NCBI GenBank assembly: GCA_030684405.1
Contig: JAUXYA010000008.1
Location: 1-64,000 of the forward strand
Direction of reading: 5' to 3'
Source of the DNA: Burkholderiales bacterium
Lineage (GTDB): Bacteria > Pseudomonadota > Gammaproteobacteria > Burkholderiales > SG8-41
DNA length: 64,000 nucleotides
Shown piece after piece: positions 42,287 through 60,197 of the stretch. The notes beneath the pieces are model-generated. The model was given only the letters and a program-made list of their open reading frames with translations, did no database searches and was not told where the DNA came from. Within the stretch, counting starts at the first letter, position 1. The number at the start of each line of letters is the position of its first letter. The position numbers and the translations under genes were made by a program.

Positions 42287-42510
42287 GGGTTGGATTTCGA
42301 AATTCCTTTTTAATGACAACGACTTACGGCGACTTGTTGACATCAGTTTTTATGATTTTTTTACCTTGAAATAAACCAATAAAAACAAAGAGGTATTGCG
42401 CGTACTGAAAGTAGCGCCTTAAGTAATTATGCTTAAAAATCAGGCAATTAGCGGAGCAAGCGTCGTCAACAAGCGACGGCTTGGCCAAATGAAGCTTCAG
42501 GGCAGGAAAA
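42287..42510. other. AT-rich spacer between the mra promoter and rnpB
   Basis: About 220 bp with no supported gene. It is AT-rich and holds an imperfect hairpin (AAGCGTCG/CGACGGCTT, 42463-42486) downstream of rnpB with no T run. The only open frame here has no recognisable product. Confidence 0.5.
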
Positions 42511-43000
42511 GTGAAGCTGGCCGGTAAGCCGGGTTCTGTCGTGGACAGCCATTCCTCTGGGCCGGCCATTGCTGGCCGGCTCAAGCCACCTACCCGCAAG
42601 CTCGGCGGGACGCGTCATCGCTTGCCTATGCGGTGTTGCTCCGGGTGGAGGTTACCCTGCCATTCGCGTTACCGCGAACGCGGTGCGCTCTTACCGCACC
42701 TTTTCACCCTTGCCTGATCCGCCGTAATCCGTTTGCACGAATTACGGGGGCGCTTGCGCATCCCCTTTCGGGAGTGCTCGCACACCCCCCTCCCCATTTA
42801 AGGGAGACTTTGCGGCGCTTGCGCGCCTCAAGTCGGGCGGCCATCGGCGGTTCGTTCTCTGTGGCCCTGTTCCTCGCCTCGCGGCGGACGGGCGTTACCC
42901 GTCACCCTACCCTGTGGAGCCCGGACTTTCCTCTATGCGCGGCACGGGCAAGTTGCCTTGTCCGGTTTGTTCCGCGCACAGCGGCTGCCTGGCCAGCTTC
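42511..43000 (-). ncRNA. rnpB: RNase P RNA, bacterial type A, with enlarged P12
   Basis: Ribozyme that matures the 5' ends of tRNAs. Read on the minus strand it starts GAAGCTGGCCAGGCAGCC (pairing with the 3' end CCGGCCAGCTTCAC), then contains the conserved GGAAAGTCCGGGCTCCACAG, AACCGCCGATGGCC, AGGGTGAAAAGGTGCGGTAAG, CTCCACCCGGAGCAA, GGGTAGGTGGCTTGAGCC and GACAGAACCCGGCTTA blocks in order. At about 490 nt it is some 110 nt longer than E. coli rnpB, and the excess sits at 42721-42840 in the P12 arm. The ends are set by comparison and may be off by a few bases. Confidence 0.95.
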
Positions 43001-48262: not shown

Positions 48263-48320
48263 TTTATTAATATAATCAAGTACTTATAATCACTCGCCGA
48301 GGGGCGCCTGCGGGCGCCCC
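48263..48320. terminator. AT-rich stretch and GC hairpin at the convergent end of dolP
   Basis: An island TTTATTAATATAATCAAG follows the dolP stop (48263-48293), then GGGGCGCC-TGCG-GGCGCCCC (48301-48320) forms a perfect 8-bp stem inside the last codons of the opposing SnoaL-like gene. No T run follows it, so termination is uncertain. Confidence 0.4.
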
Positions 48321-48736
48321 CGACGTTTCAGCGCGCGCAGCAGCAGGCCGATCGCCGGCAGCTTTTCGTAGAGTTCAGCAGCGTCCCAGTAGTCACGATG
48401 TACGGCGACCAGGCCAGCCGCATCGAGAGTCAGCAGACTCGCGCCGTGGATGCGCTGAACTTTGCCCGGCCGCCAGCGCCGGAAGCTGAACTCGAAATCC
48501 CATGTCAGCAGCACTTGCGAGCTCTCGGCCACGCGGTCGCGCACGATGAACCGCGGCGTATCGAGCTGTTCAAACATGTGGCGGAATATGGCGGCGACTC
48601 GCTCGACGCCGCGCACGTCGCTGAATGGATCGACAAAACGACATTCCTGCGCATAGTACTGCGGCAACGTGCCAACGGTTTCCGGACTCAGCGTTTCAAA
48701 ATAGCGCACCAGCGCGTCGATTCTCTGCGCGTTCAC
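48290..48736 (-). CDS. SnoaL-like (NTF2-fold) protein
   Basis: 148 residues of the SnoaL/NTF2 cone fold: RFVDPFSDVRGVERVAAIFRHMF, RVAESSQVLLTWDFEF and RIHGASLLTLDAAGLVAVHRDYWDA. Proteins of this kind are small isomerase-, hydrolase- or binding-type domains. It is the last gene of the minus-strand operon starting at folE2 and overlaps the SDR stop by four bases. Substrate unknown; a modified fatty acid is a guess from context. Confidence 0.75.
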   Translation of the reverse strand: MNAQRIDALVRYFETLSPETVGTLPQYYAQECRFVDPFSDVRGVERVAAIFRHMFEQLDTPRFIVRDRVAESSQVLLTWDFEFSFRRWRPGKVQRIHGASLLTLDAAGLVAVHRDYWDAAELYEKLPAIGLLLRALKRRGRPQAPLGE

Positions 48737-49509
48737 AGGCCTGTCCCCCGGCGCACCAGCGCGAAATAGATCCGGTACGGCAAAAGCTGCAGCAGCTTCA
48801 GCCAGAGCGTAAAGCGGCGCGGAAAATGGATTTCAAATTCACCGCGCCCGAGCCCGGCCAGTATCGCCTGCGCCGCCTCTTCGGCGCTGATCAGCGCCGG
48901 CATGCGGAAGGTGTTGCGGTCGGTCAGCGGCGTCTTGACGAAGCCGGGATTGATCAGGAATACGCCGATGCCGCGCGGCGCAAGGTCGAGGTACAGCGTT
49001 TCTGCGAGATTGATCAGCGCAGCCTTGGTCGCGCCATAGACCAGTGCCGTAGGCAGGCCGCCATAGCCGGCGACGCTCGACACTATGCCGACCGCACCTT
49101 TTCTCTGCTGCTGCAACTGTCGCAGCACCGGAACGAGGCAATTGAACACGCCGTTGATATTGACGTCGACCAGGCGGTGCGCAACAGCGGCATCGAGGTT
49201 CCAGGCCCGCACCGGCTGGTGGGTTCCGGCGCAAAGCAGCACGAAATCCACGCCGCCCCAGGCCGCAACGATGCGCTCGAGGACCGCTGCGGCCGCTGCG
49301 ACATCGGTCACATCCAGCGGCAGTGCAATCGCGGCATCGCCATGCGGCACCGCGATGCGTTCCAGTTCGGGCGCGCTGCGCGCCGACAGCGCCACCCTGG
49401 CGCCCTGCTCCAGCAAGGCGCGCGCCACCGCCGCTCCGATGCCACTGGAGGCACCGACGATCCAGACGCGCTTGCCGTTCCAGTCGCGCAGCGGAGGATT
49501 CAGGCTCAT
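48733..49509 (-). CDS. Short-chain dehydrogenase/reductase
   Basis: 258 residues. NAD(P) site VWIVGASSGIGAAVARALLEQG, NAG-like LCAGTHQP, catalytic Ser in VSSVAGYGG, and YGATKAALINLAE with the YxxxK pair. The hydrophobic C-terminal stretch WLKLLQLLPYRIYFALVRRG suggests membrane contact, as in lipid-active SDRs. It overlaps the DUF3833 gene (ATGA). Confidence 0.85.
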   Translation of the reverse strand: MSLNPPLRDWNGKRVWIVGASSGIGAAVARALLEQGARVALSARSAPELERIAVPHGDAAIALPLDVTDVAAAAAVLERIVAAWGGVDFVLLCAGTHQPVRAWNLDAAVAHRLVDVNINGVFNCLVPVLRQLQQQRKGAVGIVSSVAGYGGLPTALVYGATKAALINLAETLYLDLAPRGIGVFLINPGFVKTPLTDRNTFRMPALISAEEAAQAILAGLGRGEFEIHFPRRFTLWLKLLQLLPYRIYFALVRRGTGL

Positions 49510-50036
49510 GTGCGCTTGCGAAAACTCAGGATCACTTCGCCAAGGCGGATGCCGAACTTGCTCATTACCGATCGATTGAGCATGACCTGATCGTCAATCA
49601 TGTACATCCAGTCGTCAAAATCCACTTCCCAGGTCCGGCCGTCCACTTCGAGCGCCAGCACATACTGCCAGCGCAGCGCATTGCCCTGCACCTCGCCGTA
49701 CGCCTCACCAATGACGTCGTCCGCCGTCCCACGATAGCGATTGGCACCGATACGGGTAATGGTCCACACCCTGCGGCTGCGCGTGCCATCGGAGTATTCG
49801 AAATGCTCGTCGAGAACGCCGGTATCTCCGCTCCAGCTCGCATCGATCCGCACGTAAAACCGCTTGACGACCTTGCCACTGCGATCCTGAAACATTCCCC
49901 ATGCATCGATCGTGCCGTCGAAATAGCGCTGCAGATCCATGGCCGGCCGCTCGTCCCGGTAGCGCTCGACCGGCACCGAACCGCAACCCGCCAGCGCCAG
50001 CAGCAGCGCCGCCAGCATCCATCGCATTCCCTTCAT
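49506..50036 (-). CDS. DUF3833 lipoprotein
   Basis: 176 residues. Signal peptide and lipobox LAGC (MRWMLAALLLALAGCGSVPVE), then a DUF3833 beta-rich domain with YFDGTIDAWGMFQDRSGKVVKRF, DEHFEYSDGTRSRRVWTI and FDDWMYMIDDQVMLNRSVMSKFG. Predicted outer-membrane or periplasmic lipoprotein; relatives recur in ChrR/LitR-type stress operons. ATGA overlap with the MFS gene. Confidence 0.8.
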   Translation of the reverse strand: MKGMRWMLAALLLALAGCGSVPVERYRDERPAMDLQRYFDGTIDAWGMFQDRSGKVVKRFYVRIDASWSGDTGVLDEHFEYSDGTRSRRVWTITRIGANRYRGTADDVIGEAYGEVQGNALRWQYVLALEVDGRTWEVDFDDWMYMIDDQVMLNRSVMSKFGIRLGEVILSFRKRT

Positions 50037-51328
50037 GTCCCGACTCCTTTCCATGCGCGCGGCGCACCGCGCGGCTCCAGTTCCGAAAACCACAGTATCG
50101 AGGCTGCGGCCAGCTTGACCACGCAGGGCAGCAGCGCATAGACCCATGACAGCGGGGAACCCTGTTCCGCCACCGTCCCCGGCATATAGTCCAGCCATTG
50201 CAGCAGCGGCAATGCAATGCCCGCGGCGAGTGCCAGCGCCAGCTTCTCCAGCAAGTGCCAGAGACCGAAATAGGCGCCGTCGGGCCGCCCGTCGCGGCCT
50301 TCGTCATCATCAATCACATCGGCCAGCAGCGAGGCCGGCAGCGCGAGGTCGGCACCAAAAGCGAGCCCGGACAGGACGCAGACCGCGGCAAAAGCCACTA
50401 CATCACCAGCCCCCAAAGCATAGGCCCAGACAAATGCCGAGACAGCGACCGCCATCGCCAGCAGCCAGGCACGCGACTTGCCGATGCGCGCGGCCAGCCA
50501 GACCCACAGCGGCATGCCCGCGGCGCCAGCAACGAAATAGAGCACCAGAAACAGCGGCGTCAGGTCTGCCCGCTGCAGCACATCGGCAACAAAAAACAGC
50601 AGCAAGGTCGCCGGCACCGCCGCCGCAACGCCGTTGACCAGGAACACAAGGGCGAGCCTGCGAAAGCGCGGATTACGTAGCGGTTGCAACAGGGCGCGCA
50701 GCGTCACGGCTCGCGTCGCCACTGTCGCGGCTGCAGGGCCCGCCATCAGCGTGATGGTCGCCGCCACTAGCAGCAGCGGCAGATAACCGGCCGCAAACAA
50801 TGACAGGCCGGCGCGCGTGCCCTGCAGCCGCACCAGCAGTTCCGGAACCGCGGCAGCGAACAGCACGCCGGCGAGCGCGGCGATGCCGCGTGCCGCAGTG
50901 ATCCGGGTGCGCTCGACATAGTCGCGCGACAATGCGCTGCCCAGCGCGAAGTGCCCGATGCTGGCCGCGCTGAGGCCAAGGTATGTCAGCACCAACGAAC
51001 CGGCGAGCCAGATCGCGAGTCCCTCCCCCGCTGCCGGCGGGTTGAACAGCAGCCAGAAACCCGCTGCAAGCGGCAGCACCGCGCCGGCGATCATGGTTTT
51101 GCGGCCGCCGCGATGCGCGGGAATGCGATCGGCAAGGGCCCCCAGCAGCGGATCGCTGACCGCGTCGAGCAGGCGCACCGCGAGCAGCAGGAACCCGATC
51201 AGCGCGAGGTCGAGTCCGAGTTCGCTGTAATACTTCGGTACATGTACGTGCACCGGCAACGCCGCGACAGCCAGCGGCAACGCGACCGCGGCATAGGCCG
51301 CGAGTGCCCGCTTACCGAGCGCGGCCAT
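50033..51328 (-). CDS. MFS permease of the GPH (sugar:cation symporter-like) family
   Basis: 431 residues with about 12 membrane helices. The loop after helix 2 is DAVSDPLLGALADRIPAHRGGRK, the MFS_2/GPH mark, and YFGLWHLLEKLALALAAGIALPLLQW lies near the end. Homologues in these operons are not simple sugar carriers; lipid or lipid-precursor movement is possible but unproven. ATG 51328 overlaps the preceding gene by 17 bases. Confidence 0.8.
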   Translation of the reverse strand: MAALGKRALAAYAAVALPLAVAALPVHVHVPKYYSELGLDLALIGFLLLAVRLLDAVSDPLLGALADRIPAHRGGRKTMIAGAVLPLAAGFWLLFNPPAAGEGLAIWLAGSLVLTYLGLSAASIGHFALGSALSRDYVERTRITAARGIAALAGVLFAAAVPELLVRLQGTRAGLSLFAAGYLPLLLVAATITLMAGPAAATVATRAVTLRALLQPLRNPRFRRLALVFLVNGVAAAVPATLLLFFVADVLQRADLTPLFLVLYFVAGAAGMPLWVWLAARIGKSRAWLLAMAVAVSAFVWAYALGAGDVVAFAAVCVLSGLAFGADLALPASLLADVIDDDEGRDGRPDGAYFGLWHLLEKLALALAAGIALPLLQWLDYMPGTVAEQGSPLSWVYALLPCVVKLAAASILWFSELEPRGAPRAWKGVGT

Positions 51329-51857
51329 CGCCACCCAGCAATGCCGAGCGCAGGTCCGGCGTCTGGGTGCGTGGATCCAGCCAGATTTCGAAGAAACGCC
51401 GGGCAAATTCCGGGTCGTCGATGCTGCCCAGCGGCTGCGTCCCCGAATGGAATTGCGCACCGCGCCCCGGCAGATAAAGTCCTATCAGCCGGCTGCCCGC
51501 CTCGACATCCGGGAACACCGTGCGCATGCCGGCTTCCCAACGCGCCAGCCTCGCCTCGTCCGCCACCCCCATACGCCGCATCTCGTCGGCACTGGTGGCG
51601 GCAAGTTGCGCGCCGCTGATGCGCCGGGCATAGACAATGTCGAGTACATAGGGCGCGTCGGGCTGCCAGCGGCCATCGCGCGACCACAGGGCGGCGTCGT
51701 AAACATGAAAGCCCCACCAGCGCAGCCGCCCCTTGCCGACCATGCGGCAACTCTCGAGCACGCTGCACACCGGCACCGGCAATTGCGGCGGCACATTGAC
51801 TGCCGCAGCGGGCGCGGCGAGCAGCAGCGCCAGCGCGCAGAATGCCATCCTAAGCAT
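51312..51857 (-). CDS. Exported chalcone-isomerase-like protein
   Basis: 181 residues. A signal peptide (MAFCALALLLAAPAAA) is followed by a chalcone-isomerase-like domain: GKGRLRWWGFHVYDAALWS, VLDIVYARRISGAQLAATSADEMRRMG and DPEFARRFFEIWLDPRTQTPDLRSALLG. Bacterial members bind fatty acids or heme; no isomerase role is established. It overlaps the methyltransferase gene by 8 bases. Confidence 0.75.
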   Translation of the reverse strand: MLRMAFCALALLLAAPAAAVNVPPQLPVPVCSVLESCRMVGKGRLRWWGFHVYDAALWSRDGRWQPDAPYVLDIVYARRISGAQLAATSADEMRRMGVADEARLARWEAGMRTVFPDVEAGSRLIGLYLPGRGAQFHSGTQPLGSIDDPEFARRFFEIWLDPRTQTPDLRSALLGGDGRAR

Positions 51858-53064
51858 GCGTAAGCACCGCCTGCATCACACCAGTGGCGCCGGCACGGAA
51901 GCCGGCTTCGCAGTACGCCAGGTAAAAGCGCCAAGTGCGCATGAAGCGCTCGTCGAAGCCCTGCGCCTCGACCTGCGCGGCAACGGCGTGGAAGCGGCGG
52001 TGCCAGTGGCGCAGGGTTTCCGCGTAGTCGAGGCCGAAAGCATGCGTGCCGGCAAGGGCAAGTCCCTGTTCTGCCGCTTCTGCGCGAAAACGTTCCGGCG
52101 ACGGCAACATGCCACCCGGAAAAATATACTGCTGGATGAAGTCGGTACCGCCGCGATAACGCTCGAACTTGGATTCGGCAATGGTGATGGTTTGCACCAC
52201 GGCACGCCCCCCCGGTTTCAGCCTCTGGCGCAGGGCTGCGAAATACCCCGGCCAGTAGCGCTCACCGACGGCTTCGAACATCTCGATCGACGCGATGTGG
52301 TCATACTGGCCCTCCAGATCGCGGTAGTCGCAGAGCCTGAACTCGACACGATCCTGCAGACCGGCAGCAGCAATGCGCGCACGCGCGTATTCCAGTTGCG
52401 CCCCCGACACCGTGATGCCGGTGACCCTGCAACCGGCGCGAGCCGCATGCTCGGCAAAACCGCCCCAACCGCAGCCGACCTCGAGAATATGGTCTCCGGG
52501 CCGTGCGCCAAGTTCACGCAGGATGAGCGCGTACTTCGCTGTCTGGGCCTGCTCCAGGCTGAGCGACAGGTCGCCGTCAAACAACGCCGCAGAGTAGGTC
52601 ATCGTGCCATCCAGCCACAGCCGGTAGAACTCGTTACCGATGTCGTAGTGGGCATGGATGTTGCGGCGGCTGCCGGCCCGCGTATTCGGGCGCAGCCAGT
52701 GGCGGAGGCGATAGGCCAGAGTCGCCCACCAGCGCCCATGAATCGCCTGCTCGATGGCCTGCTCGTTCAGCGCGCCGAGCAGCAGCAGTTGGGTCAGGTC
52801 GTCCGTGCTCGCACGACCGGCGATGTATGCCTCGGCAAGGCCGATATCACCCTTCCTCAGAATGTCACTGCAGGTCTGCCAGTCGGCCAAGCTCAAGGTC
52901 GCATGCGGGCCGGGACGCGCGCCGGCGAACTCGAGATGTCTGCCATCGGGCGTGCGCAGGGTAATACTGCCAAAGCGCAGCCGTTCGAGCAGTCGAAACA
53001 GCCAGCGCGCGGCAGAAGGTTCATTGCCGGAAGGTGGTGCGGCATCGGTCAGTGTGTTGCTCAT
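51850..53064 (-). CDS. Cyclopropane-fatty-acyl-phospholipid synthase-like methyltransferase
   Basis: 404 residues. An N-terminal lipid-binding domain (DILRKGDIGLAEAYIAGRASTDDL) precedes a SAM methyltransferase core: HYDIGNEFYRLWLDGTMTYSAALF, VLEVGCGWGGFAEHAA with the E-x-GCGWGG motif, SIEMFEAVGERYWPGYF and DFIQQYIFPGGMLPS. It adds a methylene or methyl group to unsaturated acyl chains; furan fatty acid methyltransferases are similar. ATG 53064 overlaps the DUF1365 stop. Confidence 0.88.
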   Translation of the reverse strand: MSNTLTDAAPPSGNEPSAARWLFRLLERLRFGSITLRTPDGRHLEFAGARPGPHATLSLADWQTCSDILRKGDIGLAEAYIAGRASTDDLTQLLLLGALNEQAIEQAIHGRWWATLAYRLRHWLRPNTRAGSRRNIHAHYDIGNEFYRLWLDGTMTYSAALFDGDLSLSLEQAQTAKYALILRELGARPGDHILEVGCGWGGFAEHAARAGCRVTGITVSGAQLEYARARIAAAGLQDRVEFRLCDYRDLEGQYDHIASIEMFEAVGERYWPGYFAALRQRLKPGGRAVVQTITIAESKFERYRGGTDFIQQYIFPGGMLPSPERFRAEAAEQGLALAGTHAFGLDYAETLRHWHRRFHAVAAQVEAQGFDERFMRTWRFYLAYCEAGFRAGATGVMQAVLTHA

Positions 53065-53834
53065 CGTGTAGTGTCCTCCGAGGGCGGCAGGGGTTTCGGG
53101 AAAAACGGCACGCGCTTCAGCCACAGCCGCAGCGCGTGATAGTGGATGCGCAACATCACGCCGAAGGTCAGCGCGGGATGGCGCAGCAGCGCGTGCGCCA
53201 GTGCTGCGGCGGTAAGGGCCTGCGCCGAGCCGCCAACGCTGGTGATCAGCCGGTGGCCCCGGGCATCCTCGTAATCGATACGGAAACTGCAATGCGCCCC
53301 GGCATCAGCAAAGCGGAAGCGGTAGGCGCCGGAAACCGGAAAAAATGGCGACACATGAAAAACCTTGCGCGCCTCCAGCCAGTCGCCGGCAGCGATCGGA
53401 CGCGCGTCTTCGTGGGCCAGCAGGTAGTTGTGATGCTCGCCGAAGGTGTTACTGACTGCGGCGAGCACTGCACGCAGCGCCCCCTGCCGGTCGTGGCACA
53501 GCCAGAAGCTGACCGGATTGAACACATAGCCCAGGATCCGCGGAAAACACTGCAACCAGATCGCACCGTCGGCACAGGCCAGGTCGTGATCCGCGAGCAG
53601 GCCACGAATCCAGGGTTCCAGTGCACTGCCGTCGCGCGGACCATGGTCGGCATCGTGAAAGGTGCACAGGTTCCAGCGGTTGCGCGAACACAGGGCCGGC
53701 AGCTCCGGCTGCGGCCCGTCGATGCGCAGGCGCAGAAAAAACACGCCGTGACGAAAGGCGTGCACGGCCGGCGCATCGCGGTGATGCATCACCGTGCCCG
53801 TATAAAGCAGTGCGCGAGGCGACGCTGCAGTCAT
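53061..53834 (-). CDS. DUF1365 protein
   Basis: 257 residues: LLYTGTVMHHRDAPAVHAFRHGVFFLRLRID, FPRILGYVFNPVSFWLCHD, NTFGEHHNYLL and KVFHVSPFFPVSGAYRF. DUF1365 proteins are nearly always between an FAD-dependent oxidoreductase and a cyclopropane synthase-like gene, as here, and are presumed to work with them in acyl-chain modification. Mechanism unknown. ATGA overlaps on both sides. Confidence 0.85.
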   Translation of the reverse strand: MTAASPRALLYTGTVMHHRDAPAVHAFRHGVFFLRLRIDGPQPELPALCSRNRWNLCTFHDADHGPRDGSALEPWIRGLLADHDLACADGAIWLQCFPRILGYVFNPVSFWLCHDRQGALRAVLAAVSNTFGEHHNYLLAHEDARPIAAGDWLEARKVFHVSPFFPVSGAYRFRFADAGAHCSFRIDYEDARGHRLITSVGGSAQALTAAALAHALLRHPALTFGVMLRIHYHALRLWLKRVPFFPKPLPPSEDTTR

Positions 53835-55138
53835 GCGGCAACCTTCAATGCCTCGGGCTGGGACAGCCAGGGCGCGGCAATTCCGAGGTCTGCGCCCACC
53901 GCCATGCCTGCCTTCAGACCATCCTCATGGAAACCGTAACCTGTCCATGCGCCGCAGAACCAGGTGTTGCGGCGTCCCTGCAGTCGGGGCAGACGTGCCT
54001 GTGCCGCATCGCTGCCGACATCGAATACCGGATGGGCATAAATATAATGGTCGATCACGGCATCAGCGCGCGGCGCGCGCGATGGATTCAGGGTGACGAT
54101 CACCGGCCGCTGGAACGGCAGGGGCTGCAGCTTGTTGATCAGGTAGCTGACGCCGACCGGCCTGCCGGCATCGGCCTCACCGCCAGCGTGGTAGTTCCAG
54201 GCCGACCAGGCCGAATGCGCGCGTGGCAGGAAGCTTTCGTCGGTATGCAGGACCACCTCGTTGTCCTGCCAGGCCACCGCGCCCAACACCGCGCGCTCTT
54301 CCGCGTCGGCATCAGCGAGCAGGCGCAAGGCCTGGTCGCTGTGACAGGCCAGCACCACGGCATCGAAGCGCGCTTCCGCGCCGCCGGCCTGCAACACGAC
54401 GCCCTGTTCCCGGCGGCGCACCGCGGTAACGGGCGTGGCGAGGCGTATTTCGGCGATATCCGCTGCAAGCTTTTCAACATAACTGCGCGCACCACCGGTC
54501 ACGGTGCGCCATTGCGGACGGTCCTTGACCTGGAGCAGGCCATGGTTGTCGCAAAACCGGAAAAAAGTCTGTGCCGGATAACACAGCATGGCTGCGGTCG
54601 GGCAGGACCAGATGGCGCCCGCCATCGGCAGCAGGTACCAGTCGCGGAACGCGCGTCCATAGCCTCCGGCATCAAGAAATTCGCCGAGGGATCCCGCAGT
54701 GCCGGATGCTGCGCGGGCCAGCGCCGTTGCCTCGCGGTTGAAACGCAGGATGTCGACCAACATGCCCCAGAACGTGGGGCGCAACAGATTGCGGCGCTGC
54801 GCGAACACTGTGTCGAGGCTGGCGCCGGCCCACTCGATGCCCGCGTCCTCAAGGCGCACCGAGAACGACATGTCGCTGGCACAGGACTGCACGCCAATGT
54901 AGTCGAACAACGCAATCAGGTTGGGATAAGTGCGGTTGTTGTACACCAGGAAACCGGTATCGACCGGTGCGCTGATGCCGTCGAGCGTAACGTCGACGGT
55001 GTGCGTATGCCCCCCGAGGTAGTTATTGGCCTCGAACAGGGTCACCGCATGGCGTTGCGACAGCAGCCAGGCGGCGGAGAGACCGGAGATGCCCGAGCCG
55101 ATCACGGCAATGCGCTTGCCCTGTGCGCCGGGATGCAT
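53831..55138 (-). CDS. FAD-dependent amine-oxidase-like oxidoreductase
   Basis: 435 residues. The dinucleotide fold IAVIGSGISGLSAAWLLS starts at residue 9; GGHTHTVDV, DTGFLVYNNRTYPNLIALF, PTAAMLCYPAQTFFRFCDNHGLL and the C-terminal FCGAWTGYGFHEDGLKAGM match the NAD/FAD-binding protein group paired with DUF1365. Rhodobacter and Pseudomonas homologues belong to singlet-oxygen or light regulons; desaturase or saturase action on fatty acyl chains has been proposed. The gene begins two bases after the folE2 stop. Confidence 0.85.
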   Translation of the reverse strand: MHPGAQGKRIAVIGSGISGLSAAWLLSQRHAVTLFEANNYLGGHTHTVDVTLDGISAPVDTGFLVYNNRTYPNLIALFDYIGVQSCASDMSFSVRLEDAGIEWAGASLDTVFAQRRNLLRPTFWGMLVDILRFNREATALARAASGTAGSLGEFLDAGGYGRAFRDWYLLPMAGAIWSCPTAAMLCYPAQTFFRFCDNHGLLQVKDRPQWRTVTGGARSYVEKLAADIAEIRLATPVTAVRRREQGVVLQAGGAEARFDAVVLACHSDQALRLLADADAEERAVLGAVAWQDNEVVLHTDESFLPRAHSAWSAWNYHAGGEADAGRPVGVSYLINKLQPLPFQRPVIVTLNPSRAPRADAVIDHYIYAHPVFDVGSDAAQARLPRLQGRRNTWFCGAWTGYGFHEDGLKAGMAVGADLGIAAPWLSQPEALKVAA

Positions 55139-55139
55139 G

Positions 55140-55934
55140 CTATTTCACCCGCTCGATCAGCGCGTAGGCCGAGTGATTGTGAATCGATTCGAAGTTCTCG
55201 GCTTCCACGGTATAGCTGCGCACACGCGGATCGACATCGAGGCGCAGCGCGATGTCGCGCACCAGATCCTCAACGAACTTCGGATTGTCGTAAGCCTTTT
55301 CGGTCACGTACTTCTCGTCAGGCCGCTTCAGCAACCCGTAGACCTCGCAGGAGGCCTCCTGCTCGGCGATCCCGGCCAACTCCTCAATCGCCAGCGGTTC
55401 CGCGCACTGCACCGTGATGGTGATCTCGGAGCGCTGGTTGTGGGCACCATATGCGGAAATCTCCTTCGAACAGGGACAAAGGCTCGTCGCCGGCGCCGAT
55501 ACCCGGGTCGTGAACACGGCGCCCTCCGGCGTCTGCTCGCCGCGGAACATCACGCGGTAATCAAGCAGGCTTTCGACGCCTGAAACCGGCGCACGCTTGC
55601 GGATGAAATAGGGAAAACGCATTTCGATCGTGCCGCTCAGCGCATCGAGCCGCTGCAGCATGCGCTCGAGCAGGCGGGTGAAGGACGCCGCATCAATCGC
55701 CTCGTCGCATTGCTGCAGGACTTCAATGAAGCGCGACATGTGGGTGCCCTTGACCTCGGGCGGCAGGCCCACGGTCATATCGACCGTGGCCACCGTCGGC
55801 ACCGCAGCGCCGCCGACAGCTGCAATGCGCAGGGGATGGACCAGCGCCTTGACGCCGACGCGGTTGATGTAGACGTTGCGGCGATCGGCAATCGACTGCA
55901 CATCAGGCAACAGCCATTTTTCCGGTGCATTCAT
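55140..55934 (-). CDS. folE2: GTP cyclohydrolase IB (FolE2)
   Basis: 264 residues of the COG1469 type: DVQSIADRRNVYINRVGVK, GLPPEVKGTHMSRFIEVL, the metal-binding Cys and His in TSLCPCSKEISAYGAHNQRS and ESIHNHSAYA near the end. It turns GTP into dihydroneopterin triphosphate, the entry to folates and pterins. ATG 55934 has AGGAG seven bases upstream. It leads the nine-gene minus-strand operon, which is odd for a folate gene; a pterin or methenyl-folate need of the photolyase or lipid enzymes may explain it. Confidence 0.92.
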   Translation of the reverse strand: MNAPEKWLLPDVQSIADRRNVYINRVGVKALVHPLRIAAVGGAAVPTVATVDMTVGLPPEVKGTHMSRFIEVLQQCDEAIDAASFTRLLERMLQRLDALSGTIEMRFPYFIRKRAPVSGVESLLDYRVMFRGEQTPEGAVFTTRVSAPATSLCPCSKEISAYGAHNQRSEITITVQCAEPLAIEELAGIAEQEASCEVYGLLKRPDEKYVTEKAYDNPKFVEDLVRDIALRLDVDPRVRSYTVEAENFESIHNHSAYALIERVK

Positions 55935-56130
55935 GTTCAACTCCTGTCTTGTGCAAAACCAATCTTGCCGTCGGCGTAAAGCCAAGTCTCCATTACATAT
56001 AAAGGAGAGTTACGCCGATATGCAGATTGACTTTGTCCAACTAATGACCAATAATGTCTTGGTCAAAGATACAGAAATGAACCGAAAATTCCTATATTTT
56101 CACGATTAATCCTTATTTTGTCCAAGACAT
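55935..56130. promoter_or_regulatory. Divergent control region of the folE2 and MerR-B12 operons
   Basis: AT-rich 196-bp gap. Four half-sites of type TTGG(A/T)CA occur: CTTTGTCCAA (56031-56040), TGACCAAT (56045-56052), TTGGTCAAAG (56059-56068) and TTTGTCCAAG (56117-56126). Sites two and three make the perfect dyad TGACCAA-N7-TTGGTCA; sites one and three are also inverted with one mismatch. The last site overlaps TTGGAC, a possible -35 for the minus strand with TATAGG or AAATAT downstream at long spacing. Regulator binding is inferred. Confidence 0.7.
56027..56055 (+). promoter_or_regulatory. Sigma70 promoter of the MerR-B12 operon
   Basis: TTGACT (56027-56032) and AATAAT (56050-56055) are 17 bp apart, each with five of six consensus matches. 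Predicted start near 56062, a leader of about 70 nt. Two half-sites lie in the spacer and a third covers the start site, which fits repression by occlusion. Confidence 0.75.
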
Positions 56131-57060
56131 ATGAAAACGATACCGGACAGCAGCATTGATGCTCATGCGGCCTGCTACAACATCGCCGCCGTCGAACGTG
56201 ATACCGGTTTGTCCAAGGACACACTGCGTGTATGGGAGCGACGCTACGGTTTTCCGAAGCCGCGGCGCGACCAGCACGACGAGCGCCTGTACTCGCTGCC
56301 CGACCTCGAGAAACTGCGCCTGTTGCGCCTGCTGATTGATTACGGGCACCGTCCCGGCAAGATCATTAATTGCAGCACCGCCGAACTCGCTCAACTGATC
56401 AGCTCGCGCGCGCCGATAAAATCGCCGCCGCCCGAGATCGCCTCGATCATCGACCTGTTGCTCCAGCACGATGTGGAGAATTTCCGCAACGCCCTGCTGC
56501 AGGCGCTGATGAAGCAGGGCTTGCTGCGTTTCGTCACTGAGACCGTGGCCGGCCTCAACCACTGGATTGGCGAAGCCTGGCTCTCCGGCCGCATCGCGGT
56601 GTTCGACGAGCACCTCTACTCCGAACACATCCAGAACATCCTGCGCAACGCGATCATTGCCCAGCCCGGTCGCGGCTCGGGCCCGAGAGTACTGCTGACC
56701 TCTCTGCCCGGCGAGAAACACCGAATCGGCCTGCTGATGGTCGAGGCTGTGCTGATCGCCGAAGGCGCGGCCTGCGTCGCGCTCGGCACCGAAACGCCGA
56801 TCATCGACATCAAGAACGCGGTCCCGGCCTACCGGGTCGATGTCGTTGCACTGTCCTTCAGCAGCGCGATCACCCAAACCGCGGCGCTCGCCGGTCTCGC
56901 CGAGTTGCGCACCTTGCTGCCCGAAACAGTCGAGGTCTGGGGCGGTGGCGGCGCGCTGGTCCGCGCGCGCAAGGCTGCGCCTGGCGTTCTGCTGCTGCGC
57001 TCCTTCGACGACCTGCGTTATGCCCTGGAGCGCTGGCGCGTCGAACACGTCGCGCACTGA
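56131..57060 (+). CDS. MerR-family cobalamin-binding regulator (CarH/LitR-like photoreceptor)
   Basis: 309 residues. Residues about 15-85 are a MerR winged helix (YNIAAVERDTGLSKDTLRVWERRYGFPKP). The middle domain carries W-x9-EH (WLSGRIAVFDEH), the cap over adenosylcobalamin in CarH, and the Rossmann domain has GEKHRIG, the E/DxHxxG motif giving the cobalt its lower His ligand. In CarH and LitR, light breaks the Co-C bond and the tetramer leaves DNA. All ligands are kept, so light control is likely but not shown. No strong ribosome site precedes ATG 56131. Confidence 0.9.
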   Translation: MKTIPDSSIDAHAACYNIAAVERDTGLSKDTLRVWERRYGFPKPRRDQHDERLYSLPDLEKLRLLRLLIDYGHRPGKIINCSTAELAQLISSRAPIKSPPPEIASIIDLLLQHDVENFRNALLQALMKQGLLRFVTETVAGLNHWIGEAWLSGRIAVFDEHLYSEHIQNILRNAIIAQPGRGSGPRVLLTSLPGEKHRIGLLMVEAVLIAEGAACVALGTETPIIDIKNAVPAYRVDVVALSFSSAITQTAALAGLAELRTLLPETVEVWGGGGALVRARKAAPGVLLLRSFDDLRYALERWRVEHVAH

Positions 57061-57078
57061 ACACCTGCGGTCAGACAC

Positions 57079-57207
57079 ATGCGCAAGTCGGATCTTCCGG
57101 TCAAGACCTGTGCGGCCTGTGGTCGGCCCATGGTCTGGCGCAAGCACTGGGCAAAGAACTGGGAGGCCGTCAAATACTGCTCAGCGCGTTGTCGGCGCAG
57201 CCGCTGA
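57079..57207 (+). CDS. DUF2256 zinc-ribbon mini-protein
   Basis: 42 residues, begin MRKSDLPVKTCAACGRPMV and end YCSARCRRSR. Two CxxC-type pairs (CAAC and CSARC) predict a zinc knuckle; WRKHWAKNWEAVKYCS is the family core. DUF2256 genes sit beside cryptochrome/photolyase-like genes in many bacteria; function unknown. It lies 18 nt after the MerR stop, and the photolyase ATG begins two bases after its own stop, so all three are coupled. Confidence 0.88.
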   Translation: MRKSDLPVKTCAACGRPMVWRKHWAKNWEAVKYCSARCRRSR

Positions 57208-57209
57208 AC

Positions 57210-58745
57210 ATGCGCAACCTCGTCCTGATCCTTGGCGACCAGCTCGACGCCGACAGCGCCGCGTTGTCCGGCTTCGATCCGCAGCACGACCGCGTGGTGA
57301 TGATCGAATGCCCTGCCGAGGCCACCCATGTGTGGAGCCACAAGGCACGCATTGTGCTGTTCCTGTCGGCGATGCGGCACTTTGCGGAATTGCTGCGTGA
57401 CCGCGGCTGGCCGGTCAGCTACAGGGCCACGGATGATCCTGCACCGGCGGCGACCCTCGCTGACGGCCTGATTGCCGAGATCGGTCAACACCTGCCCGAA
57501 CGCGTGGTGGTCTGTGAGCCGGGCGAGCTGCGCGTGCGCGAAATGCTTGAGCAGGCTTGCCACGATTCAGGCCTGCCACTGGAAATCCGCCCGGACACGC
57601 ACTTCCTGTGCAGCAGCGCCGAGTTTACGGCGTGGGCCGGCTCGCGCAAGGTGCTGCGCATGGAGTTCTTTTACCGCGAGATGCGCCGCCGGCACCGAGT
57701 GCTGCTCGAGGATGGCACCCCTGCGGGAGGCCGCTGGAACTTCGACGCGGCCAACCGCTCGGCCTTCCCGAAAGCCGGGCCCCCGGCGCTGCCACAGCCA
57801 CTGCGCTTCGCTCCTGACGGCATCACCCGCGCCGTGATCGATCTGGTTGTCAGACGTTATGCTGATCACCCGGGCACGCTTGAGGACTTCGGCTGGCCGG
57901 TGACACATGAGGACGCACGAACGGCGCTGGCCGATTTCATCGAACACCGCCTGTCCGGCTTCGGCCGCCACCAGGATGCGATGTGGACGGACATGCCCTT
58001 CGGCTGGCACTCACTGCTGTCGGTGGCATTGAACCTCAAGCTGCTAAACCCGCGCGAAGTGATTGCGGCGGCGGTCGATGCCTGGCAGCGCGGCCAGGCG
58101 CCGCTGCCTGCAGTCGAGGGCTTCGTGCGTCAGATCCTCGGCTGGCGCGAGTTCGTCCGCGGCGTCTACTGGCTGGACATGCCGCAACTGCTCGAAGCCA
58201 ACCACTTCGGCCACGAGCACCCGCTGCCCGCCTGGTACTGGACCGGCGAGACACAGATGAACTGCCTGCACCAGGCCATCGGCCAGACCCTGCGCTACGG
58301 CTATGCCCACCATATCCAGCGGCTGATGGTGACCGGCAATTTCGCGCTGCTCGCCGGGCTGCAGCCGCGCGCGGTGCACGAGTGGTATCTGGCGGTGTAT
58401 GTCGATGCCGTCGAGTGGGCTGAACTGCCCAATACCGCGGGCATGGCGCTCTATGCCAACAGCGGGCGCTTCACCAGCAAGCCCTATGTCGCCTCCGGCG
58501 CCTACATCGGCCGCATGAGCAATTACTGCCGCGGCTGCCGCTACGACCCGAAATTGCGCAGCGGACCGCGCGCCTGCCCGTACACCGTGCTCTACTGGAA
58601 CTTCCTCGACCGCCACGAAGTCGAATTTTCCGCCAACCCCCGCACGGTGCTGATGGCCCGCAACATCTCGCGCCTCAGTCCGGCCGAGAGAGGGGCGATC
58701 CGGCAGTCGGCTGATCGCATTCTTGCAACAATTCAGCAACTATGA
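57210..58745 (+). CDS. phrB: FeS-type (6-4) photolyase / bacterial cryptochrome (PhrB/CryB family)
   Basis: 511 residues. LVLILGDQLDADSAAL starts the antenna domain; YAHHIQRLMVTGNFALLAG lies in the FAD domain. The four iron-sulfur cysteines are present: NCLHQAIG, then C-x2-C-x12-C in YCRGCRYDPKLRSGPRACPY, the spacing seen in Agrobacterium PhrB. Such proteins repair (6-4) photoproducts using FAD, with a lumazine antenna and a 4Fe-4S cluster. ATG 57210 is taken; an earlier in-frame TTG-like start is unlikely. Confidence 0.92.
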   Translation: MRNLVLILGDQLDADSAALSGFDPQHDRVVMIECPAEATHVWSHKARIVLFLSAMRHFAELLRDRGWPVSYRATDDPAPAATLADGLIAEIGQHLPERVVVCEPGELRVREMLEQACHDSGLPLEIRPDTHFLCSSAEFTAWAGSRKVLRMEFFYREMRRRHRVLLEDGTPAGGRWNFDAANRSAFPKAGPPALPQPLRFAPDGITRAVIDLVVRRYADHPGTLEDFGWPVTHEDARTALADFIEHRLSGFGRHQDAMWTDMPFGWHSLLSVALNLKLLNPREVIAAAVDAWQRGQAPLPAVEGFVRQILGWREFVRGVYWLDMPQLLEANHFGHEHPLPAWYWTGETQMNCLHQAIGQTLRYGYAHHIQRLMVTGNFALLAGLQPRAVHEWYLAVYVDAVEWAELPNTAGMALYANSGRFTSKPYVASGAYIGRMSNYCRGCRYDPKLRSGPRACPYTVLYWNFLDRHEVEFSANPRTVLMARNISRLSPAERGAIRQSADRILATIQQL

Positions 58746-58779
58746 TTATGTTCGTCCCGTCAAGTCCCCGGAGACCCTG

Positions 58780-59643
58780 ATGCAGCCCGACGCCGAGTTC
58801 GTCACCACCGGACACATGCTGTACCCCGAAATCTTCAAGTCGATGGAGCGTATCCGCTGGAGCATGGCTGATGACGTGCCCTGGGACCGCTTCGACAGCA
58901 ACCTGCTCTCCGAGGAGCAGGCGCTGACGATCAAGATGAACGCGATCACCGAGTGGGCAGCACTGCCGGCCACCGAGATGTTCCTGCGCGACAACCGCCA
59001 CGACAGCGATTTTTCCGCCTTCATGTCGGTATGGTTTTATGAAGAGCAGAAACATTCTCTGGTGCTGATAGATTACCTGCGGCGCTTCCGCCCCGAACTC
59101 GCGCCGACGCCGGAAGAGCTGCATGCCGTGCGTTTCGAATTCGACCCGGCGCCGCCACTGGAAACGCTGATGCTGCATTTCTGCGGCGAAATCCGCCTCA
59201 ACCACTGGTACCGCTGCGCGATGGAATGGCACACCGAGCCAGTGATCAGGAAAATTTACAGGCTGATCTCGCGCGACGAAGCACGCCACGGCGGCGCTTA
59301 CCTGCAGTATATGAAGCGCGCGCTGAACAGCGTCGGCAATCCCGCGCGTGCGGCCTTCGCCAAGGTTGGCGTATTGATGGCCAGTTCGGGGCGCAGTGGC
59401 AAGCCACTGCACCCGACCAACCTGCATGTCAACAAGGCGCTGTTCCCCAATGACACGGTTCAGAGCCGGCTGCCCGACCCCGCGTGGCTTGAGCGCTGGC
59501 TCGATGAGCAGATCCGTTTCAACAGCGACTGGGAGCAGAAGGTGGTGAAGGTCATCCTGCACAACCTGTCGCTGCTCTTCGGCCGCAGCTTCGAATCGGT
59601 GAAGGATCTCAACCGTTTCCGCAAGGAAATTGCTGCAGCCTGA
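58780..59643 (+). CDS. Ferritin-like diiron protein, acyl-ACP desaturase-like
   Basis: About 287 residues. Helical protein with the two expected iron motifs: WFYEEQKHSLV (ExxH) and ISRDEARHGG (ExxH), plus NAITEWAALPATEMFL and HFCGEIRLNHWYRCAMEWH with further Glu/His. This resembles the soluble acyl-ACP desaturase (FA_desaturase_2) and its ferritin-like kin. An acyl-chain oxidation role would suit the neighbouring lipid operon. ATG 58780 has GGAG six bases upstream; a longer TTG start would overlap the photolyase end. Confidence 0.8.
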   Translation: MQPDAEFVTTGHMLYPEIFKSMERIRWSMADDVPWDRFDSNLLSEEQALTIKMNAITEWAALPATEMFLRDNRHDSDFSAFMSVWFYEEQKHSLVLIDYLRRFRPELAPTPEELHAVRFEFDPAPPLETLMLHFCGEIRLNHWYRCAMEWHTEPVIRKIYRLISRDEARHGGAYLQYMKRALNSVGNPARAAFAKVGVLMASSGRSGKPLHPTNLHVNKALFPNDTVQSRLPDPAWLERWLDEQIRFNSDWEQKVVKVILHNLSLLFGRSFESVKDLNRFRKEIAAA

Positions 59644-59699
59644 AGCACCGCGGTCGCGGGGTTTGTCGCGGACTTCCTGGCCGCGTAGACTGCCGGGCC

Positions 59700-60197
59700 A
59701 TGCACAACACCCCTGCATACGAGCAGCATATCTGCGCCCCGGAGGAAGCAGCGGCGCGGATTGCCCGATTTCCGCGGCCGCTGGTGTTTACCAACGGCGT
59801 GTTCGACATCCTGCACCGCGGCCATGTCACCTATCTCGCCCAGGCACGAGCACTGGGCGCAAGCCTGGTCGTCGCGCTGAACAGTGATGCCTCCGTAAAA
59901 CGCCTCGGCAAGGGCGATGACCGCCCGCTGAACCCGTTGGCCGACCGCGCAGCCGTGGTGGCAGCGCTCGCCAGCGTTGACCTCGTCTCCTGGTTCGACA
60001 CCGACACGCCGCTGGATCTGATACTCGCGCTGAAGCCCGATGTGCTGGTCAAAGGCGGCGACTGGCCCCCCGAGGCCATCGTCGGCGCGCGCGAAGTGCA
60101 GGGCTGGGGTGGCAGCGTACATTCGATCGCCTTTGCTCATCAGCGCTCAACCACTGGGCTTCTACAGCGCGTGCGCTTGGTCACACCAAATAAGTGA
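59700..60197 (+). CDS. rfaE2: D-glycero-beta-D-manno-heptose 1-phosphate adenylyltransferase
   Basis: 165-residue nucleotidyltransferase equal to the C-terminal half of HldE. FTNGVFDILHRGHVTYLAQAR holds the HxGH ATP site, VVALNSDASVKRLGKG the substrate site, and PDVLVKGGDWPPEAIVGA the family close. It makes ADP-heptose for the LPS inner core. In betaproteobacteria it is usually downstream of birA-coaX-SPOR; here it is convergent with them. A gap of 56 nt separates it from the diiron gene. Confidence 0.93.
   Translation: MHNTPAYEQHICAPEEAAARIARFPRPLVFTNGVFDILHRGHVTYLAQARALGASLVVALNSDASVKRLGKGDDRPLNPLADRAAVVAALASVDLVSWFDTDTPLDLILALKPDVLVKGGDWPPEAIVGAREVQGWGGSVHSIAFAHQRSTTGLLQRVRLVTPNK

Follow-up and report, generated by a model that had tools for sequence, protein, structure and literature searches.

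In a 64,000-nt stretch of a Burkholderiales genome (contig JAUXYA010000008.1, positions 1 to 64,000; hereafter the window), a lipid-modification (ufa) operon and an operon with a photolyase gene diverge from one shared control region, the latter being headed by the gene for a CarH/LitR-type MerR-B12 regulator (litR). We consider it probable that this cluster is a LitR/CarH-type light regulon, in which the regulator would control the furan-lipid and photolyase operons from paired palindromes. Sequence comparison of this genome (GCA_030684405.1; 3.74 Mb, 37 contigs, 99.4% complete) with its relatives gave the content and order of the genes and showed conservation of sensor residues, of a proposed operator pair and of a promoter. 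A preliminary description of the window had assigned the cluster's genes to families, all of which were recovered in place by Pfam-type profile matches (Table 1).

Palindromes upstream of litR

The sigma-70-like promoter directed towards litR is retained in 12 of 12 aligned regions (the window and 11 near relatives), with ten reading TTGACT and two TTGACA ahead of N17-AATAAT. For comparison between loci, the window genes were mapped onto the top 80 among 478 relatives of ufaD, the window FAD (flavin adenine dinucleotide) gene, and regions upstream of the regulator were counted in 39 loci, those of the window litR and 38 relatives, which also make up the regulator alignment. Sixteen of these regions form a genus-like set (the window plus 15 loci with regulators at least 78% identical), leaving 23 others.

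The palindrome core TGTCNNNGACA is present upstream of the regulator in all 16 genus-like and 15 of the 23 other regions (31/39), while 100 shuffles yielded means of 0.04 and 0.07 regions, respectively (maxima 1 and 2). Its density reaches 3.95/kb upstream of litR (39 matches in 9,880 bp) vs. 0.021/kb elsewhere in the fetched DNA (28 matches in 1.36 Mb). Copies of TTGTCCNNGACAA with at least 9 of 11 bases form pairs in 25 of 39 regions. Their distance of 62–65 bp corresponds to about six turns of the helix, the spacing being 64 bp in 15, 63 bp in eight and 62 or 65 bp in one each. Seven genus-like regions hold a third copy 85–89 bp further towards the lipid operon, which at the same threshold is not found in the window. 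Among ufaD loci without litR, a status qualified by the fetched stretch stopping too early in some of the 80 loci, the palindrome lies within 300 bp upstream of ufaD in one of 42, a locus that is cut 291 bp upstream. The palindrome tends to track the regulator rather than the lipid genes, which fits its being the litR operator, and on this comparative footing we read it as a putative LitR operator.

Beyond the common gene arrangement, an Eleftheria terrae plasmid (L217:8430-9906) encodes a related regulator divergent from a fasciclin-domain gene, with a palindrome pair 62 bp apart upstream. No ufa gene is annotated within 9 kb of this regulator, and the fasciclin-domain gene may be a light-controlled target of another kind. 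In Azoarcus, a good copy of the palindrome is accompanied by an imperfect second ~74 bp away (spacing by eye), and Comamonas has one copy.

Two further uses of the motif were tried and discarded. Helical phasing of the spacings gave a Rayleigh R of 0.93 on a hand-collapsed set of 15, a value we do not lean on, since the set consists largely of a single spacing and of loci related to one another. A genome-wide regulon defined by the motif was rejected, as counts are at chance and the motif alone is uninformative away from litR: in 21 genomes of the genus, 45 exact palindrome matches were listed and 30 seen as loci, with the recurrent ones mostly inside conserved coding genes, and the own genome's one exact intergenic match, between the genes for a PAS/Cache protein and mutS, is within chance.

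Sensor residues of the regulator

LitR joins an N-terminal MerR domain (MerR_1, PF13411, 1.1e-10) to a C-terminal cobalamin-binding domain (PF02310, 6.7e-8, just over the cut-off). A Trp, a Glu-His pair, the lower-ligand His and GxxxP are elements of the signature of light-responsive cobalamin domains (PMC11796333). These residues are conserved in 39 of 39 aligned regulators and kept in the window protein as W150, E160-H161, H197 and G219/P223; the G of GxxH is variable in several rows. LitR also retains the Rossmann B12 domain and the His within it, and so is not confined to the helical half that marks class II LitR. A profile search of the genome revealed a member of the PF01923 cobalamin adenosyltransferase family and no PF02572 adenosyltransferase. 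The kept signature residues and the PF01923 family member support the earlier notion of the MerR-B12 protein as a cobalamin photoreceptor.

One position departs from Thermus CarH. His132 of that protein, which becomes the upper ligand after light and whose loss hampers release (PMC10442372), corresponds to Leu151 in the window and to His in none of the 39 aligned regulators; five other named betaproteobacterial regulators carry Glu, Glu, Ala, Ala and Arg. Since the equivalent residue is never His in this branch, release would need a light state other than bis-His ligation.

Linkage of regulator and lipid genes

In all 38 surveyed loci that hold both genes (38 of 80), the regulator is divergent from ufaD, an outcome in keeping with the preliminary description, which had proposed a survey of gene order around MerR-B12 genes as a check. 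ufaD is followed by DUF1365 in 80 of 80 loci. Occurring in 20 of the 38 regulator-bearing loci, folE2 is an optional member, and DUF2256 adjoins the regulator in 15 of them. An order-wide sample of 300 genomes (cut-offs of E ≤ 1e-30 for the regulator, E ≤ 1e-60 for ufaD and E ≤ 1e-30 for the diiron protein) contained the regulator in 99, ufaD in 145 and the diiron protein in 129. Of the 99 regulator genomes, 86 also carry ufaD, at most 15 kb away in 75 of these 86; the association has a Fisher p of 6e-22, ignoring relatedness.

Related lipid genes also occur under what appears to be other control. The ufa locus of Amphritea has a sigma factor gene and one for a ChrR-like cupin nearby. A Burkholderia anthina plasmid typed as conjugative (L158:4867-16198) carries a ufa operon together with two annotated sigma-70-family genes, an anti-sigma gene, DUF2256 and GTP cyclohydrolase I, much the same gene set, and no MerR gene is annotated within 9 kb of that locus. 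In a plasmid collection, 134 records carry a UfaD relative, including 26 from Streptomyces, 15 from Rhizobium, 12 from Pseudoalteromonas and 11 from Acinetobacter.

Counter-evidence and alternative readings

Several observations speak against a light regulon run from these palindromes. The B12 Pfam scores of LitR lie near the cut-offs (32.8 vs. 32.1, and 22.6 vs. 23.0, with PF02607 just below), and Thermus CarH H132A mostly remains tetrameric after light (PMC10442372), so that without His132 the release by light may be feeble or absent. For folE2, the control region yielded no convincing promoter; it offers a −35-like TGGACA within operator C and weak −10 candidates. The core TGTCNNNGACA is missing from 8 of the 23 non-genus regions, and two Caballeronia regulators are without any palindrome. 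In the window, TGTCCANGACA has five matches when one mismatch is allowed, as many as in 11 of 100 shuffles. Across the genome, TGTCCANGACA has seven sites vs. five in the reversed control, and TTGTCCNNGACAA with one mismatch 37+33 vs. 37+40, i.e. the chance level. Because window and genome-wide counts are at chance, the case for the operators is carried by comparison between loci, many of them related. Nor does the region resemble a CarH operator, in which 11-bp nAnnTnnACAn repeats stand three or four in tandem (PMC8156234): the best triple in the window scores 11/15, was reached by 7 of 100 dinucleotide shuffles and lies off the conserved place, leading us to reject the tandem model and prefer the palindrome. 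In the other 38 regions, only L033, L059 and L067 have triples whose score was reached by at most three of 100 shuffles (2, 3 and 0), and the doubles of L037, L059 and L067 were reached by 0, 3 and 0.

The conserved pair might instead be the site of another regulator, or a promoter or translation element. This would suit the chance-level genome-wide counts and the copy next to the litR start codon, a place where conservation could stem from other signals. We regard it as very improbable, given a motif found at 31 of 39 litR loci vs. one of 42 loci without litR, its recurrence beside litR genes in different surroundings (paired in Eleftheria, single in Comamonas, absent from the two Caballeronia genes), and a two-fold symmetry that suits a MerR-type DNA-binding domain (PMC8156234).

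Alternatively, the regulator may have lost light sensing and serve as a cobalamin-level or redox sensor, or resemble CarA, a relative that binds DNA without needing B12 (PMC8156234), in which case the operons would answer cobalamin status or oxidative stress. The non-His residue in 39 of 39 regulators and the poor release of Thermus H132A point this way, as do five other loci (L046, L057, L065, L067 and L104; 5 of 10 open reading frames scanned) in which a glutathione peroxidase gene separates merR from ufaD or folE2; this arrangement agrees with oxidative stress and suggests a lipid-peroxide-detoxifying regulon member in other genera. Against such a loss stand the conserved adenosylcobalamin-binding residues, those for the adenosyl group included, the light responses of CtMerR, SasPcob and AbDPcob, none of which has His at that position (PMC11796333), and the pairing of the regulator with a photolyase, an enzyme needing light. 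We therefore hold lost light sensing to be rather improbable.

A third alternative takes the regulator for a class III LitR, the type of Burkholderia multivorans, a species of the same order; control would be indirect, via an extracytoplasmic-function (ECF) sigma factor, and the lipid promoter would need another sigma. Profile scans found neither an ECF sigma/ChrR pair nor any other sigma factor among the cluster genes, ECF genes elsewhere in the genome not being searched. The sigma-70-like promoter conserved in 12 of 12 near relatives also argues against indirect control, as does the Burkholderia ufa locus, where two sigma genes come with no MerR gene annotated within 9 kb, and we deem this assignment quite improbable. 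The genome's two above-cut-off Cupin_7 matches belong to a single double-cupin open reading frame of ChrR type (226 aa; G000:C27:102436-103059, L128).

The lipid operon and its likely product

Nine minus-strand genes run from 55934 down to 48290, joined by four 4-bp overlaps, overlaps of 8, ~17 and 4–22 bp (the last with an uncertain start) and, where folE2 meets ufaD, a gap of 1 bp, the folE2 start being corrected to 55934 from 55985 in an earlier listing. The preliminary description had reported overlaps at almost every junction of both operons; this holds on the minus strand, with seven overlaps and one 1-bp gap, and probably not on the plus strand, where DUF2256 and photolyase genes are likely 2 bp apart and the overlap of photolyase and diiron genes is probably not real. 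By inspection, the DUF3833 translation contains LAGC, which we take to be a lipobox.

In Rhodobacter sphaeroides, UfaM (RSP2144) methylates cis-vaccenate, UfaD (RSP1091) desaturates the UfaM product, and UfaO (RSP1090, DUF1365) inserts oxygen from O2 to give a methyl-furan acid; the R. palustris genes RPA2571, RPA2570 and RPA2569 are ufaD, ufaO and ufaM (PMC7380195). The window encodes homologues of all three together, its FAD, DUF1365 and CMAS genes following the R. palustris order. We prefer UfaM over a cyclopropane synthase because the operon CMAS falls within a starred clade of five ufaO-following betaproteobacterial CMAS in a tree with 8 of 15 inner forks open; a cyclopropane role for this copy was set aside. 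The genome's other CMAS above the cut-off forms a long branch of uncertain place, and there are two further short matches above the cut-off. The operon product is likely a methylated or furan fatty acid. Of the acyl-chain remodelling proposed earlier (cyclopropane, methylated or furan forms), the core stands in the form of UfaD/UfaO/UfaM-type enzymes, with a furan acid fitting better than a cyclopropane acid.

The short-chain dehydrogenase (SDR), DUF3833 and MFS proteins had been put forward as undefined steps of the lipid pathway. This claim is weak, because single deletions of RSP1087, RSP1088 and RSP1089 caused no detectable fatty-acid change in Rhodobacter (PMC7380195). RSP1087 is listed as an SDR and RSP1088 as a lipoprotein (Table 2 of PMC5507510); the MFS gene corresponds to RSP1089 (402 residues) by size only.

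A structure model of UfaO, built on an alignment of the window protein with 42 of the 75 listed relatives, is a confident barrel (predicted local distance difference test (pLDDT) score 94.2), and His17, Asp63, His135 and His231 are invariant in the 43 aligned proteins. Its top PDB matches are nitrobindin/lipocalin-like barrels, with template-modelling (TM) scores of 0.2–0.33 by query length and none at E ≤ 0.001, and no sequence relatives were found in the PDB at E ≤ 1. The weak modelled likeness to nitrobindin and lipocalin is only a lead on the cofactor.

DUF2256, photolyase and the diiron protein

The photolyase probably starts at ATG 57210, leaving a 2-bp gap after DUF2256 and no overlap. 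Its alignment with 5kcm and 4dja places the MNC, YCxxC and ACP cysteines (four) in register with PhrB, and these four presumably hold an iron-sulfur cluster.

For the diiron protein, ATG 58780 is probably the start instead of the listed TTG 58723, since homologues have their N-terminus at or close to a conserved MLYP motif; it is with this start that the overlap with the photolyase gene disappears. E58, E88-E89-Q-K-H92, E137 and D166-E167-A-R-H170 are invariant in 40 of 40 aligned proteins (69–93% identical to that of the window). The model made from this alignment (window plus 39 of the 45 listed relatives) has a pLDDT of 90.5, its nearest fold being DesA2 (1za0; E 1.4e-3, TM 0.53 by query length), with none at E ≤ 0.001. 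In distant surveyed loci, conservation is higher for the diiron protein than for the rest of the cluster.

The preliminary description had counted the diiron gene in the regulon. The gene is indeed present; its membership is doubtful, and we judge it unlikely to be a true member that contributes an extra desaturation step to the furan pathway. Such a role would agree with its position after the photolyase or litR gene in many loci, the enrichment of litR and ufaD among its carriers (odds ratios 5.8 and 5.2; relatedness ignored) and the acyl-ACP-desaturase-like fold of the model. However, in 68 of the 129 genomes having the gene, it lies more than 15 kb from litR and ufaD or occurs without them, and in 14 of 20 fetched loci of those 68, an rfaE2-like gene is directly downstream, as in the window (gene at 59700; Pfam CTP_transf_like, the label rfaE2 being our own). 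Moreover, the fetched stretch of two Polynucleobacter loci has the ufa set without a diiron gene. We read the diiron gene as an older neighbour of the rfaE2-like gene, with the light cluster presumably placed beside them later. The pair itself (58780-60197 in the window) recurs across many genomes of the order, whether light genes are present or not.

Elsewhere in the window, a class A bacterial RNase P RNA is encoded at 42509-43000 on the minus strand (288.5 bits).

Table 1. Features of the cluster and of its control region, in window coordinates
Feature	Position	Strand	Evidence and remarks
SnoaL-like (NTF2-like) protein, final gene of the ufa operon	48290..48736	-	PF12680 6.9e-14; overlaps SDR gene by 4 bp
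SDR, counterpart by kind of RSP1087	48733..49509	-	PF00106 5.2e-44
DUF3833, probable lipoprotein, counterpart by kind of RSP1088	49506..50054 (start possibly 50036)	-	PF12915 2.1e-70
MFS_2/GPH-type permease	50033..51328	-	PF13347 8.5e-71; start inferred
Chalcone-isomerase-like protein (Chalcone_3)	51312..51857	-	PF16036 5.3e-9
UfaM-type S-adenosylmethionine fatty-acyl methyltransferase (CMAS)	51850..53064	-	PF02353 7.5e-83; adjoins ufaO as in R. palustris
UfaO-type oxygen-inserting enzyme (DUF1365)	53061..53834	-	PF07103 2.2e-76
UfaD-type FAD acyl desaturase (flavin amine-oxidase type)	53831..55138	-	PF01593 1.4e-19; beside DUF1365, cf. RSP1091/RSP1090
FolE2, GTP cyclohydrolase IB, operon gene 1	55140..55934	-	PF02649 3.7e-90; NF010200 above cut-off
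Shared control region of folE2 and litR	55935..56130	.	Non-coding stretch separating both operons
Sigma-70-like promoter TTGACT-N17-AATAAT, towards litR	56027..56055	+	10/12 consensus bases
Proposed LitR operator B, TTGACCAAGACAT	56054..56066	-	9/11 match to TTGTCCNNGACAA; covers -10 end and expected transcription start
Proposed LitR operator C, TTGTCCAAGACAT	56118..56130	+	10/11 match to TTGTCCNNGACAA; abuts litR start codon; 64 bp from B
CarH/LitR-type MerR-B12 regulator (litR)	56131..57060	+	CarH chain 5c8d 3.3e-29
DUF2256, small Cys-rich protein	57079..57207	+	PF10013 1.6e-20
FeS-BCP photolyase (PhrB/CryB family)	57210..58745	+	PF04244 (DPRP) 3.6e-78; 5kcm (6-4) photolyase 1.1e-154
Acyl-ACP-desaturase-like diiron protein, regulon membership doubtful	58780..59643	+	Weak FA_desaturase_2/AurF match; ExxH motifs

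Proposed mechanism

In the dark, an adenosylcobalamin-bound LitR oligomer would sit on two TTGTCCNNGACAA operators (three in some relatives), one covering −10/+1 of the litR promoter, the other at the litR start codon, keeping both operons off. Green or blue light would break the cobalt-carbon bond and LitR would leave the DNA, whereupon RNA polymerase with the housekeeping sigma factor could transcribe litR, DUF2256 and the photolyase gene and, in the opposite direction, folE2, ufaD, ufaO, ufaM and the genes that follow. UfaM would then methylate unsaturated phospholipid acyl chains, UfaD add a second double bond and UfaO insert oxygen, closing the furan ring, while the photolyase would repair ultraviolet damage. 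In this scheme, the response to light, the binding of cobalamin, the occupancy of the operators, the furan product and the way in which the folE2 promoter is repressed are all predictions.

We further venture, as a tentative idea about which we retain considerable doubt, that a betaproteobacterial branch dropped both the His132 switch and the tandem operator. Its oligomer might bridge two same-face palindromes about five to seven turns apart, and light release might proceed via an unstudied cobalamin state, turning on furan-lipid synthesis and DNA repair.

With a cobalamin-type sensor tied to furan genes, at least three sensor kinds, including LOV-dependent LitR and the singlet-oxygen sigma factor, appear to run a similar photoprotective set. 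The predicted operator is open to direct testing, a natural CarH-like family without His132 bears on the light-driven release of the protein from DNA, and the list of candidate furan-pathway genes is shortened.

Comparison with known systems

The preliminary description had likened the cluster to gene sets of Rhodobacter and Pseudomonas, a likeness that bears scrutiny: such sets are light-induced in Pseudomonas (PMC9758184) and under RpoE-ChrR in Rhodobacter (PMC5507510). With the RpoE-ChrR furan system, the window shares UfaD-, UfaO- and UfaM-type genes, the R. palustris order, the SDR and the lipoprotein (PMC7380195), as well as a photolyase, which there lies within the wider ChrR regulon (PMC5507510). 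Unlike that system, it has a MerR-B12 gene at the locus instead of a sigma/anti-sigma pair, and adds folE2, chalcone-isomerase-like and SnoaL genes.

Class II LitR of Pseudomonas (PplR1-3; PmlR1/2, paired with a short LOV protein) is linked to a light-induced nine-gene operon, and that region resembles the window in ufaM, SDR, FAD oxidoreductase and photolyase genes, cryB and folE also being light-induced (PMC9758184). The LitR-controlled, sigma-70-like promoter P6650 of P. mendocina has sites on the −35 and between +1 and ATG (PMC9758184), a plan broadly like that of the window control region with its promoter site and pre-ATG site. The sequences differ, being TGTACA-N12-TGTACA in class II (PMC9758184) and the proposed TTGTCCNNGACAA in the window. 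Class II proteins keep one of two B12 domains and receive light via the LOV protein (PMC9758184), whereas the window LitR keeps its cobalamin site.

With class I CarH/LitR (Thermus thermophilus, 5c8d; Bacillus megaterium), the window shares the MerR plus cobalamin domain architecture, a proposed operator over the promoter and the equivalents of W131, E141-H142, H177 and GxxxP. It departs from class I in having Leu for His132, in proposed palindromic sites that lie some six turns from each other where class I has direct 11-bp repeats in tandem, and in having lipid and photolyase rather than carotenoid genes as its presumed targets.

Class III LitR of Burkholderia multivorans, named in PMC9758184, also belongs to a betaproteobacterial light regulon. 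Its C-terminus is described as without similarity to the functional domain. The protein reportedly acts through an ECF sigma factor, with folE2, cfaB, litS and phr2 as targets, a set similar to the window genes.

On plasmid pAZKH of Azoarcus sp. KH32C (~714-722 kb), a MerR-B12 gene whose product is 48% identical, with a palindrome upstream, is divergent from a FAD-DUF1365-CMAS-CHI-MFS-DUF3833-SDR-NTF2 series; unlike in the window, no folE2, DUF2256, photolyase or diiron gene is annotated there.

Among the literature matches listed, no title or abstract start stated that a cobalamin-type LitR controls furan lipid genes; further searches, dependent on exact phrases, gave no paper and missed PMC9758184. 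From Pseudomonas, LitR is known to govern light-induced ufaM operons, photolyase and GTP cyclohydrolase (PMC9758184), and related sets are known under RpoE-ChrR (PMC5507510, PMC7380195). To these, the present comparison adds that a cobalamin-type sensor appears linked to the gene set across many Betaproteobacteria and that His132 is consistently absent from it, along with the palindrome pairs that we propose as operators.

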